From Natronococcus sp. CG52 (GTDB lineage: Archaea; Halobacteriota; Halobacteria; Halobacteriales; Natrialbaceae): 64,000 nucleotides of DNA. Location: assembly GCF_023913515.1 (NCBI RefSeq), contig NZ_CP099391.1:2046001-2110000 (forward strand). The letters are read 5' to 3'. The notes beneath the pieces are model-generated. The model was given only the letters and a program-made list of their open reading frames with translations. It was not told where the DNA came from and made no database searches. Position numbers and translations under genes: made by a program. Shown piece by piece: positions 19,551 to 50,280 of the stretch (the stretch's first letter is position 1; each line of letters starts with the position of its first letter).

Positions 19551-20250
19551 CTACTTCTCGTTGGCTGTGAGGACCTTGCCGGCGGCGACGGTCTTCCCCC
19601 TGTCGCGGATCGCGAAGCTTCCGGGTTCGGGAATCTCGCCGGACGGCTCGATGCTGAGCGGCTTCTGTGGGCGGACGGTTACGACGGCTGCGTCTCCGGC
19701 CTGGATGAAGTCGGGATCCTCCTCGGCGACCTCGCCACTTTCCGGATCCACCTTCCCGTCGAGAGACTCGATCGTCCCGGCGACCTGTGCGGTGTGGGCG
19801 TGGAACGCTATAGTAACAACTGAAACGATTCACACACCGATCGCACTGTCCGCGGTTCGGAGCGAAGCAAGCGAGAACCGCGCACCCGTCGTGCGGTCGG
19901 GTGTGCATTGACTTTCAGTGGCTACTATAGGTGTAGTCGGCGGTGATGTCCGAGGGGTGCTGCATGACGACGACCTGCGCCTGGAACGTCTCGGCGACGC
20001 TTGGCGGATCGTCCGCGGGACCACAGACGTCGCCGCGACGGATGTCGTCCTCGCCGACGCCGCGGACGTTGAGCCCGACGTTGTCGTCGGGTCCGGCCTT
20101 CGGCACTTCCTCGTGGTGCATCTCGATCGTCTTCACTTCGCCACCGACGCCCGACGGCTGGAACGAGACGCTGTCCCCGTTCTGCATCCGTCCGGTTTCG
20201 ACCCGGCCGACCGGGACCGTTCCGATCCCGGATATCGTGTATTTGTCAAC
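19551..20250 (-). pseudogene. EF-1alpha C-terminal pseudogene, interrupted by a MITE
   Basis: Two pieces encode domains 2 and 3 of archaeal elongation factor EF-1alpha. Bases 19931-20250 read [19 protein letters not shown] through [19 protein letters not shown] to DITADYT; bases 19551-19807 read [26 protein letters not shown] and [17 protein letters not shown] to the normal C-terminus. The GTP-binding domain (about 230 residues) is missing. A 123-base element splits the gene at the tip of a conserved YTP-VFHAH motif. It is a second, dead copy; a functional gene must lie elsewhere. Confidence 0.92.
19808..19930. mobile_element. MITE inserted in the EF-1alpha pseudogene
   Basis: A 123-base element with imperfect inverted ends: CTATAGTAACAACTGAAA on the left and TTTCAGTGGCTACTATAG on the right. 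Inside, a second pair of complementary sequences around CACACC/GGTGTG and TCGCAC/GTGCGG gives a long hairpin. It carries no gene. A related degraded copy lies at 27018-27089. Likely a miniature transposon moved in trans by a transposase not in this window. Confidence 0.82.
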
Positions 20251-27525: not shown

Positions 27526-27537
27526 ACGCGAGCGTTC

Positions 27538-27619
27538 ATACGGTCGGTTGAAAGTCATTTCCCGTTCGATCGCGATACGGTGCTGTGATCGAGCGGCAAA
27601 TCGTTTCAACCGGGCGTAT
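27538..27619. repeat. 82-base palindromic element at the MATE stop codon
   Basis: Inverted ends ATACGGTCGGTTGAAA and TTTCAACCGGGCGTAT enclose a hairpin with shared inner motifs GTCATTT and AAATCGTTTCA. The last T belongs to the reverse complement of the MATE TGA stop codon. A second copy of the same length and layout is at 47302-47383. Possible roles are terminator, RNA-stabilising structure or MITE. Confidence 0.75.
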
Positions 27620-29130
27620 CAGTCGTCGGCGGGTGCCGCGTCCGGTCGGTAGCCCCGGCTGATCACCTTCCACTGCCCGGTCGAGAACCGGTAGTAGTTG
27701 ATCGCGGCCGGGGCGGCGGTCTCGGCGACGAAGGCGAGGTACAGCCCCGTCAGACCGAGCGCCGGAATCGAGACCCCGGGAACGGTCAGGCCGAGCACCG
27801 GAACCGACAGCGACGGGATCGTGAGCCCTGCGGCGCCGAGGTACGCCAGCGGGATCGCGAGCCCGAACATCCCGACGAGTTGGCTGTAGAAGGGCCAGCG
27901 CGTGTCGCCGCTGGCCTTGAGCGCGCCGTCGGCGCCCGTCGAGACGCCCTTCAGGATGACGGCGAGGCAGGCCGCGTAGATGAGCGAGACCGCGGTTGGG
28001 ATCGAGAGTTCGGCCGGATCGTCGGTAAAGAGGAGAACGATCGGCTCCGCGGAAACGAAGACGATCACGGCCGCGACGACGTAGATGGCGACGGCGAACC
28101 GGATGATCTCCCGGCCGTACCGTTCCGCCTGGACTTCGTCGCCGCCGCCGAGTTCCTGGCCGACGAGGCTCGAGGCAGCCAGCCCGAAGCCCCAGCCAGG
28201 GGTGTTCATCAGCCCCCAGATACGTCGGGCGATGACGTAGGCGGCGACGACCTGCGGGCCGAAGAGCGCGACGATGGCGAGCATCGGGAACTCGGCGATC
28301 GTCCAGACCGACTTCGTCCCCAGCACGGGGAGGCCGATCGTTGTCAAATCCCGGACGGTCTCCGCGTGGAAGTAGCTCCCGAAGGGGTCGATGCTGACCG
28401 GGAACGTGCCCACGCCGGGGAGCCAGCCCGCGACGAGCCCCAGGGCGAAGGTCGCGGTGACGACGACGTTCGCGAGGACGGTTCCCATCGCCGCGCCGGC
28501 GACGCCCAGTCCGAGCCCGAAGATGAGAATCGCGTTGAGCGCGATGTTGGCGACGGCGCCTCCCGCGCGGACGATCATCGGCGTCCAGGCGTCGTCCATC
28601 CCGACGAACGTGCGGCTGCCGATGAGGTTGAGACCGGCGAAGGGAATGCCGAGACCGACGATCTGCAGGTACGTCGCGCCCAGATCGATCGTCTCGGGAT
28701 CGTTACCGATTAGCGAGATTAGCTCGGCCGGATAGGTCCAGAACACGGCCGTAACCGGCAGCGTGAGGAGGATGACCAGAACGGTACTGCAGCGGACGGC
28801 CTGTCCGAGCGAATCGAACGATTCGGCGCCGTAGCGCTGGGAAACGAGCGCGATCGTCCCGCCGGCGACGCCGCCGCCGATGGCGAAGGCGAGCCCCCAG
28901 AACGGCGAGGCGAAGCCGACGCCGGCGATCGCCGTGGAGCCGACTGCGACGCCGACCATCGCGACGTCGACGGCGTTCTTCGACATCCGCGCGAGCCCGG
29001 TGACGACGCGGGGCCACGCGAGGTCCGTCGTACGCTGCGCTCGCTCGGCCTCGATCAGGCCGAGACGGGCAAGCGCGAGCCCGATCCAGAGGATAACCAG
29101 CCGGATCGGGTTGGGAACGCGACGAACCAC
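27619..29130 (-). CDS. MATE-family multidrug/toxin exporter
   Basis: A 503-residue membrane protein with about 12 helices in two MatE repeats. Repeat one runs from TGLARMSKNAVDVAMVGVAV to about residue 210; repeat two starts near GLPVLGTKSVWTIAEFPMLA at 240 and contains GFGLAASSLVGQELGGGD, the typical second-repeat signature. Exports cationic drugs or metabolites using Na+ or H+. The stop codon is fused to a palindromic element. A stand-alone gene. Confidence 0.93.
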   Translation of the reverse strand: MVRRVPNPIRLVILWIGLALARLGLIEAERAQRTTDLAWPRVVTGLARMSKNAVDVAMVGVAVGSTAIAGVGFASPFWGLAFAIGGGVAGGTIALVSQRYGAESFDSLGQAVRCSTVLVILLTLPVTAVFWTYPAELISLIGNDPETIDLGATYLQIVGLGIPFAGLNLIGSRTFVGMDDAWTPMIVRAGGAVANIALNAILIFGLGLGVAGAAMGTVLANVVVTATFALGLVAGWLPGVGTFPVSIDPFGSYFHAETVRDLTTIGLPVLGTKSVWTIAEFPMLAIVALFGPQVVAAYVIARRIWGLMNTPGWGFGLAASSLVGQELGGGDEVQAERYGREIIRFAVAIYVVAAVIVFVSAEPIVLLFTDDPAELSIPTAVSLIYAACLAVILKGVSTGADGALKASGDTRWPFYSQLVGMFGLAIPLAYLGAAGLTIPSLSVPVLGLTVPGVSIPALGLTGLYLAFVAETAAPAAINYYRFSTGQWKVISRGYRPDAAPADD

Positions 29131-47235: not shown

Positions 47236-47301
47236 ATCGGGTTCCACGCGGCCGAATCGTATTGTCGTTACGGTGAGGCCGGACGGATCAAAACGGGCGT
47301 C

Positions 47302-47383
47302 ATACGGACTGCTGTAAGTCATTTTCGGAGCGACCGCGACCCGTCCTGCGGTCGCTCCGGTAAATCGTTACAGCAGACCGTAT
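47302..47383. repeat. 82-base palindromic element at the helicase stop codon
   Basis: Inverted ends ATACGGACTGCTGTAA / TTACAGCAGACCGTAT and an inner perfect stem GGAGCGACCGC / GCGGTCGCTCC with a ten-base loop. Same length as the element at 27538, also fused to a TGA stop codon. Shared inner motifs are GTCATTT and AAATCGTT. Confidence 0.78.
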
Positions 47384-50208
47384 CAGTCCCAGAACGACTG
47401 GGTGCGGGCGTACTCGCGCTCCTTCGAGAGGATGTCCCGGTAGAAGTCCTCCTCGTTCTCCCGAAGCTTGCTGATGATTAGAGCTGCGTTGTGCGGGCCG
47501 ACGCCGCGGGCGGCCATCGCGACGACGGCCTGCTTGCCGTGGCTCTGGACGAGACTCGCGCTCTTGAAGGCGCGCTCGGTCATCTCCTCCTGTTCCTCGT
47601 CTTTCTCCTCGGCGCGGACCGCTTTGACGACCTCGTCGGCCCATGGGTTCAGCGAGGCGATCCGGGTCGAGCCGCACTCCGGACACTCGGGTTGGTCGGC
47701 GACGCGTCGTACCTTCGTTTTGACCTTCCACTCGTGACAGTGGGTACACAGTAGAATGACGCGGTCGTCTCGAATGCGTTCTTTGACCGTCTCGATGACG
47801 CTGGCGTCCGCGTTCTCGGGAGCCAGCAGCTCCTTGCCCGACGAACGGCCGCCCATCCCGACGGGGGTCCGGCCGCGGTGAGTAATCAGTTCGAGATCGC
47901 CCGACTGAATCCCTTCGAGGACGCGGCTCGCGCGTTCGACGTCCAGATCCTCGTGGAACACCTCGCGGATCGCCTCGTCGTACATCGGGGTCTCCTCGAG
48001 CGCCGAGAGCAGGCGCTCGTTCGACATCCGACCCGACCCCTGCCAGCGCTTGAGCGTGCCGAACTTCGCGGACACCTGTGCGAGCCGGAAGGCGAGCGCG
48101 TCCGATCCCTTGAGTCCGAGTTCGACGATGGTCTCGACGTGGTCCGGATCGGTCTCTTCGAGGATTCCCAGCACGTCGCTCGTCGCGATCGAGTTCGGCA
48201 CCTCGAGTTCGATCCGGTAGGGGTCCGTCTCGAGACCGACCGACGACCCGGCCTGCTGGCCGAGGAGTGCGGACAGGACCCGGCCGAGCGTCTCGTTCGT
48301 CTTGTGACCGAAGCAGGCGTTGAGGACGATCGATCGGCCCTGGCGCTCGAGGAGGAGCCGGTCGGCCGTCGGCATCGGCGCCTCGGCGTCGAGCTGGTCC
48401 TCGAGCTGCGAGCAGGCCTCGGTGAGGGTGTGCTCGTCCGCCGGATAGCGGCCCGCGACCTCGCGGCCGACCGCGGCGGCGTCGATTCCGGCCGACAGCT
48501 GCGGCTCCGCTACTCCCCGAATCTCGCCGACCTCGCCGGCGACCGCGGCGGGAACGGGGATCTCCTGGCCGATCCAGGACGGGACCTCGCCCGCTGGGTC
48601 CTCGATCGGGCTGACCTTCACCTTCCCCTCGTCGTCGTCGATCTCGGCGATGCGCCACATCTCGCCGCGCTGGATGAACACCTCGCCCGGCTGGGCGAAG
48701 TTGACGACGAACTGCTCGTCCAGGGTCCCGATTTGGGAGCCCGAGGCGATGTCGTGGACCTCGTAGGTCTCCTCGTCGGGGATCATCGAGAGGTTCGCGT
48801 AGACGTACTGCCAGGTTCCGCCCGTCGTTTCGACGCGGTCGTCGGCCTCGTCGGACCAGAGGATCCGGTTGCGGTGCAGTTCCCCGACTATCTCCCGAAT
48901 CGTCTCCGCGGTGACGTCTCTGAACGGGTACGCACGCGTGATCGTCTCGACGGCCTCGCGGACGGGGGTCGCGCCGCGGCTCTGGACGATCGCCGGGAGC
49001 TGATTCGCGACCACGTCGAGACTTCCCTCGTGGATCGTCGCGGGCTCGACCTCGCCGTCTCGAGCGCGGCGCGCGATCGCGAGCGCCTCGAACGTGTCGT
49101 CCGGGCGGGTCGTGACGATCGTGCCGCTCGAGACCTCGTCCTGACGGTGGCCAGCGCGTCCGATCCGCTGGAGAAGGCGGGCGACCTGCCGGGGACTCTG
49201 GTACTGGATCACGTGGTCGACGCGGCCGACGTCGATGCCCAGTTCCATCGAGGAGGTGCAGAGCAGCCCCTCGAGTTCGCCGGCCTTGAACCGGTCCTCG
49301 ACGTCGATCCGGGCCTCCTTCGAGAGCGAGCCGTGGTGGATTCCGATCGGCAGGTCGAGTTCGGTGAATCGCGAGCCGAGGGCCTCGGCGGTCTGTCGAG
49401 TGTTGACGAAGACGAGCGTCGACTCGTGGGCCGCGACGAGGTCGCGGATCAGCCGGACGTGACTCGCCGTCGAGGCGTCGGTGACGAGTTTGCCGGCGAG
49501 CTCCTCGTCCTCCTCGGTACTCTCCGGGCTGCGGACGGTGACGTCGACGTTGCTGCCGACGTCGATCTCGCGAATTTCGCAGGCGCGGCCGCCGGTGAGA
49601 AACTGACCGACGGCCTCGGGGTCGCCGACGGTCGCCGAGAGCCCGATGCGCTGCATCCCGCCGGCGAGGTCGTGGAGGCGCTCGAGTCCGACGGAGAGCT
49701 GTGCCCCCCGCTTCGAGGCCGCGAGTTCGTGGACCTCGTCGATCACGACGTGGGAGACGTCCTCGAGGCCCTCCCGAAGGCGTTCGCCGGTGAGCATCGC
49801 CTGCAGCGTCTCCGGCGTCGTCACGAGGACGTCCGGCGGATTCTCGGCCTGTTTTCCCCGCTGGTACTGGGTCGTATCGCCGTGGCGGACGGCGACCTCG
49901 AGGTCCAGGTACTCGCCCCACCACTCGAGGCGTTGGCGCATGTCGCGGTTGAGCGCCCGCAGCGGAGTGACGTAGAGCGCGCCGAAACCGTCCGGCTGCT
50001 CGTCCACCAGGTGGTCGAAGACGGGTAACATCGCCGTCTCGGTCTTGCCACTCCCGGTCGGCGCGATCACGAGCGTGTTCTCGCCGGCCGACAGCGGCGG
50101 AATCGCGAGTCTCTGCGGTGCCGTCGGCGTCGAGAAACCGCGTTCGGAAAGCGCCCCGCGAACCGTCGTACCGAGGTGTGTAAAGGCGGCGACGTCTCCC
50201 TCAGTCAT
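47383..50208 (-). CDS. lhr: Lhr-type superfamily 2 helicase
   Basis: A 941-residue DNA helicase. Motif I APTGSGKTETAML at about 52, motif II IDEVHEL (DEVH box, Lhr-type), motif III LSATVGD, motif VI QRIGRAGHRQDEV. After the RecA cores come the winged-helix and Lhr-core domains and a zinc-binding motif CTHCHEWK...CPECGSTR near residue 825. Lhr enzymes act in DNA repair or recombination. ATG 50208 begins the family N-terminus. A related PdeM-like phosphoesterase lies 5.7 kb downstream on the map. Confidence 0.93.
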   Translation of the reverse strand: MTEGDVAAFTHLGTTVRGALSERGFSTPTAPQRLAIPPLSAGENTLVIAPTGSGKTETAMLPVFDHLVDEQPDGFGALYVTPLRALNRDMRQRLEWWGEYLDLEVAVRHGDTTQYQRGKQAENPPDVLVTTPETLQAMLTGERLREGLEDVSHVVIDEVHELAASKRGAQLSVGLERLHDLAGGMQRIGLSATVGDPEAVGQFLTGGRACEIREIDVGSNVDVTVRSPESTEEDEELAGKLVTDASTASHVRLIRDLVAAHESTLVFVNTRQTAEALGSRFTELDLPIGIHHGSLSKEARIDVEDRFKAGELEGLLCTSSMELGIDVGRVDHVIQYQSPRQVARLLQRIGRAGHRQDEVSSGTIVTTRPDDTFEALAIARRARDGEVEPATIHEGSLDVVANQLPAIVQSRGATPVREAVETITRAYPFRDVTAETIREIVGELHRNRILWSDEADDRVETTGGTWQYVYANLSMIPDEETYEVHDIASGSQIGTLDEQFVVNFAQPGEVFIQRGEMWRIAEIDDDEGKVKVSPIEDPAGEVPSWIGQEIPVPAAVAGEVGEIRGVAEPQLSAGIDAAAVGREVAGRYPADEHTLTEACSQLEDQLDAEAPMPTADRLLLERQGRSIVLNACFGHKTNETLGRVLSALLGQQAGSSVGLETDPYRIELEVPNSIATSDVLGILEETDPDHVETIVELGLKGSDALAFRLAQVSAKFGTLKRWQGSGRMSNERLLSALEETPMYDEAIREVFHEDLDVERASRVLEGIQSGDLELITHRGRTPVGMGGRSSGKELLAPENADASVIETVKERIRDDRVILLCTHCHEWKVKTKVRRVADQPECPECGSTRIASLNPWADEVVKAVRAEEKDEEQEEMTERAFKSASLVQSHGKQAVVAMAARGVGPHNAALIISKLRENEEDFYRDILSKEREYARTQSFWD

Positions 50209-50280
50209 CGAGACGACTATGGGCGAACGGCGGATAAGCGCCACGTTCTCGGTTCGCGCCGCGGCGCGTATACCGTGCCG

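Follow-up and report, generated by a model that had tools for sequence, protein, structure and literature searches.

Two palindromes of equal length in Natronococcus sp. CG52 end exactly at the TGA stop codons of two unrelated genes. This arrangement raises the question of what placed them there, for which the original prediction offered two answers: insertion specificity for TGA-type sites or a conserved function at gene 3' ends. We examined the window (the whole stretch of DNA that was analysed, 64,000 nucleotides long) together with other haloarchaeal genomes. Each palindrome is a copy of a dispersed family of mobile repeats, which duplicates 3 bp of a defined target and whose centre inverts in place. 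A mobile, MITE-like DNA hairpin accounts for the data better than a terminator or RNA stabiliser under selection.

The two elements and their boundaries

The prediction described a pair of 82-base elements (ATACGG...CGTAT) that share the motifs GTCATTT and AAATCGTT and are fused to TGA stops. The pair was found as described, and the right-hand TCA is indeed the stop codon of a MatE-family gene in one case and of an Lhr-type gene in the other (Table 1). The 82-base boundary is accurate as drawn. However, better limits are 80 bp enclosed by 3-bp direct repeats, which had been missed: either copy has TCA on each side (TGA on the other strand). Both 80-bp elements have TACGG-type ends and are self-complementary almost from end to end. 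They fold at -42 kcal/mol (copy 1) and -50 kcal/mol (copy 2), with the arms paired almost throughout, into an outer stem of 15-16 bp, a conserved internal loop, an inner stem of 13 bp and a loop some 10 bases long. The internal loop places GTC opposite CG within GTCATTT and AAATCGTT; at this spacing, the window has the motif pair in exactly two places, and it did not appear once in 100 shuffles. Neither a kink-turn nor a BHB-like structure fitted the internal loop consistently, and both readings were rejected. At the curated threshold Rfam left the hairpins unmatched, its sole match in the window being the 5S rRNA.

Table 1. Positions of the hairpin elements, their target duplications and the associated genes within the window
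Feature	Position	Strand	Basis
Second-type element (TATAGTA...TACTATA, extra nested stem), 121 bp	19809..19929	-	covariance-model match, E 1.9e-6
Left target duplication TCA, 3 bp, copy 1	27536..27538	.	equals right flank; pattern as in 87/114 copies
Hairpin element copy 1, 80 bp (TACGG...GCGTA)	27539..27618	+	covariance-model match, E 2e-15; folds over full length
Right target duplication TCA = TGA stop of MATE gene	27619..27621	-	sequence reading
MatE-family efflux transporter gene	27619..29130	-	PF01554, E 8.7e-55
Left target duplication TCA, 3 bp, copy 2	47300..47302	.	single TGA, element-free, in relative G090
Hairpin element copy 2, 80 bp (TACGG...CCGTA)	47303..47382	+	covariance-model match, E 3e-23
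GTCATTT, left side of mid-stem internal loop, copy 2	47318..47324	+	invariant, 25 aligned copies
Inner hairpin, copy 2; both orientations of centre seen at orthologous sites elsewhere	47325..47361	+	ortholog comparison
AAATCGTT, right side of mid-stem internal loop, copy 2	47362..47369	+	invariant, 25 aligned copies
Right target duplication TCA = TGA stop of Lhr gene	47383..47385	-	sequence reading, empty site in relative
Lhr-type DEAD-box helicase gene	47383..50244	-	PF08494, PF00270, PF19306

A dispersed and mobile repeat family

The exact motif-pair pattern is present in 61 of 125 genomes of Natrialbaceae, and the reversed control gave no match. The bare motif pair was rejected as a diagnostic, since in a scan of all bacterial and archaeal genomes the matches outside Natrialbaceae were mostly due to chance. 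With a covariance model trained on 25 copies, 160 of 391 Halobacteria genomes (41% of the sample) gave matches, and in a phylum-wide sample of 393 genomes every listed match fell within the same order. The CG52 genome itself has about 20 places occupied by the family, counting together the TACGG type and a second type (TATAGTA...TACTATA) that shares its core and in some cases has a further nested stem. G080, the highest-copy genome examined, yielded 121 filtered copies in the 1.2 Mb sampled, or roughly 100 per Mb. At this density, about one hairpin per 10 kb, several sequence subfamilies were seen in G080, all of them keeping the hairpin and most keeping the TSA flanks; at loci including L072, L284 and L272, elements stand in tandem with a common TGA or are nested, some with IS insertions. 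Haloarchaeal megaplasmids carry copies, and the phage records searched contained no match to the element. On plasmids pHTUR01 of Haloterrigena turkmenica and pNMAG01 of Natrialba magadii, copies overlap glyA and an oxidoreductase gene at their annotated 3' ends. There is no repeat annotation at these two megaplasmid regions, although the plasmid gene table is confined to genes.

The second-type element of the window sits in the C-terminal fragment of an EF-1A-like gene, where it parts the GTP_EFTU_D2 sequence from the remaining C-terminus; the fragment is probably a broken duplicate. Throughout the CG52 genome about 67 half-sites of the TATAGTA type (e.g. L043-L054) were found, outnumbering the TACGG type. 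TATAGTA-type copies in this genome come in 84- and 125-bp forms, their right flank is almost always TAG, and a 3-bp duplication is not evident in them.

Identical 3-bp flanks surround 88 of 114 sampled copies, and in 87 of these 88 the flanks are TGA or TCA. The same duplication accompanies 19 of 20 copies from four genera of two other families (g33, g35, g47 and g57), even though their arms are quite different. The Lhr site reads GGGACTGA-[80 bp]-TGACGCC in CG52, compared with GGGATTGACGC in the nearest relative, G090 (94% identical), where the site is precisely empty and has a single TGA. This copy is missing from the orthologous site in all eight other genomes of the genus. At the MATE stop, a diverged copy is common to CG52 and G090, five other relatives are empty and two others carry differing variants at the same TGA. 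Alignment of targets revealed a near-palindromic 9-mer, GWC-TSA-GWC, with G-W-C on either side of the TSA centre, and this consensus was confirmed in G080. DDE transposases show palindromic target preferences of this kind. The 3-bp TGA/TCA duplications, the empty site and the 9-bp consensus support the first of the two proposed answers, insertion specificity for TGA-type sites.

Stop codons, paired arms and the inverting centre

Many of the sampled genes end in GAC-TGA, which is half of the 9-mer target. Moreover, the duplication regenerates a TGA beside the gene whichever way the element faces, and insertions at stop codons are therefore silent for the protein. Of the 114 copies sampled across genomes, 61 close an open frame of 100 or more codons, compared with 15.5% of flanking TGAs. 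The strong expectation that copies lie at stops failed in G080, where 31 of 121 copies are at predicted TGA stops and 82 lie in intergenic DNA away from stops; the others overlap gene predictions that may in part be spurious. Per TGA site, the insertion rate in this genome is 3.6-fold higher at stops; stratified by 9-mer score, the stop enrichment has an odds ratio of about 2 (p = 0.015). Copy density is 0.84/kb between convergent genes versus 0.32/kb between divergent genes. This density pattern and the match to the 9-mer indicate that target choice, combined with selection that removes insertions from genes and promoters, is enough for the stop bias. The approximately twofold enrichment left after 9-mer matching perhaps reflects purifying selection.

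It might be argued that the hairpins are instead selected RNA elements, either terminators or mRNA-stabilising structures kept at gene ends. Such a role would agree with the strength of the hairpins, with their higher density at stops and between convergent genes, and with the compensatory differences between dispersed copies described below. However, the same stop codons lack the element in most relatives, and the two orientations relative to the gene are equally frequent (43 versus 44). Most copies in G080, as noted, are intergenic and away from stops. TTTT within 30 nt downstream accompanies only 7% of copies (3% in the background); most copies lack the T-run that typifies an intrinsic terminator. 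Given the empty orthologous stops, the two orientations and the rarity of T-runs, we consider the conserved 3'-end function of the original prediction quite improbable.

The prediction also held that the stem arms co-vary and that this favours a selected RNA/DNA structure. The first part is right for dispersed copies, in which 32 double-sided changes of the arms were counted versus 11.9 in shuffles. A second alignment of dispersed copies, which was fitted to the model, includes some second-strand rows and hence leans towards structure, also gave paired arm changes above shuffles. The second part found no support. Orthologous copies at nine sites differ one-sidedly at 17 paired positions and two-sidedly at none, i.e. 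there is no compensatory change, which also speaks against the RNA element. At a fixed site, then, there is no visible base-by-base repair of pairing, and the co-variation is no proof of selection on RNA after insertion.

What does change at orthologous sites is the orientation of the centre. In-place inversion was seen at seven of 20 distinct sites (the inner hairpin at six, the whole centre at one); these 20 sites comprise the first nine and 12 from three sister genomes, one being common to both sets. At two inverted sites, no other base difference in the element is left once the inversion is undone. In Haloquadratum, 'SwitchRepeats' have been described, at which copies of a given repeat face opposite ways (PMC3119063); these may be an instance of the same behaviour.

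Proposed mechanism and relation to known systems

Taken together, the data make it probable that the palindromes are non-autonomous elements of the MITE kind, 80 bp long and without coding capacity, which insert into GWC-TSA-GWC with duplication of TGA/TCA. They are short and non-coding, self-complementarity provides them with terminal inverted repeats, and target-site duplication is evident both from the identical flanks and from the empty site in G090. From the 3-bp duplication in a near-palindromic target and the inverted ends we infer a DDE-type transposase acting in trans. Insertion would take place at the 9-bp target, where the transposase would join both ends to a 3-bp staggered cut and the central TGA/TCA would be duplicated; stops would be frequent targets because haloarchaeal genes often end in GAC-TGA. 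Spread by hairpin-competent copies would renew the paired arms. Template switching during replication, or the processing of a cruciform at the palindrome, might flip the centre and would tend to keep the arms matched.

Searches in G080 and G122 found no transposase-bearing element with TACGG-type ends. Within the 1.2 Mb of G080 (about a third of the genome), in which unpaired TIRs were scanned, no TIR pair encloses a gene. In G080, the inverted repeats read at the ends of DDE_Tnp_1 insertion sequences are different ones, and a search of this genome for PF13586 (IS5-like) gave none. All TIR matches in G122 were checked, and a 3-kb inverted TIR pair considered as an autonomous partner turned out to be two separate hairpins.

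The end-to-end complementarity exceeds what a DDE transposase needs, and a folded single-stranded intermediate is possible. An element recognised in folded form, as the mid-stem mismatch and the varying but paired arms might suggest, could still generate a 3-bp duplication in double-stranded GWC-TSA-GWC. Such a route would differ from those of both Y1 hairpin elements and ordinary DDE MITEs, and the centre would be turned round again in many rounds of transposition or replication; we regard this route as unlikely. Movement of a REP-like element as a single-stranded hairpin by a Y1 transposase (RAYT or IS200-IS605) would likewise account for a full-length hairpin with a conserved mid-stem mismatch, for arms that vary yet pair and for a high copy number in intergenic DNA. 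Nevertheless, a 3-bp duplication in a near-palindromic double-strand target is not expected of Y1 elements. In addition, the Y1 genes of G080 are three broken (short or interrupted) PF01797 fragments, none of them a cognate Y1 transposase as membership in REP/RAYT systems would imply, which makes Y1 transposases an improbable source. Direct repeats arising without a staggered cut, by recombination at a common TGA core (IS110-type or integrase-mediated circle insertion), would suit the almost invariable TGA/TCA core but are very unlikely in view of the near-palindromic preference on both sides of the 3 bp, as for a DDE strand-transfer target, the inverted-repeat ends and the fact that no copy carries a recombinase gene.

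The family is a widespread mobile repeat of Halobacteria, and because of its target choice many insertions do no harm to proteins. Inversion of the centre is so fast that, within the element, it is the only difference between some sister genomes. The repeat may serve as a natural reporter for archaeal processing of DNA palindromes and is a source of variable gene 3' ends. It is also a warning that co-variation among dispersed repeats need not mean selected RNA.

In the literature searched, which did not extend to ISfinder and many papers, no element with these ends is described, and the repeat is apparently, if provisionally, new. It resembles MITEs in being short, non-coding and dispersed, in its terminal inverted repeats and target duplication, and in the presence of two lengths or types. 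It differs from them in forming one whole-length hairpin with a conserved mid-stem mismatch, in having no identified parent transposon and in a target that coincides with stop codons. PIF/Harbinger-Tourist and IS5-related (ISL2, IS1031) elements make a 3-bp TNA-type duplication in a short palindromic target, and the present element shares this feature; however, the searches turned up no IS5-like parent that has these ends, and PF13586 is missing in G080. With REP/REPIN elements and their RAYTs the repeat shares high-copy intergenic palindromes and a conserved stem mismatch, but it duplicates 3 bp, and the highest-copy genome has only broken Y1 fragments. IS200/IS605 elements and PATEs lack inverted-repeat ends and target duplication, both of which are present here; according to PMC3119063, IS605-type elements and PATEs do not duplicate their target. 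The small mobile repeats (SMR) of Haloquadratum walsbyi are likewise haloarchaeal, about 80-110 bp long, bounded by inverted repeats, strongly selective in their targets and without a known transposase. Yet SMR are reported to cause no target duplication and have PATEs and IS605 elements as their main targets (PMC3119063), a description that sets apart the present element, which duplicates 3 bp and targets GWC-TSA-GWC.
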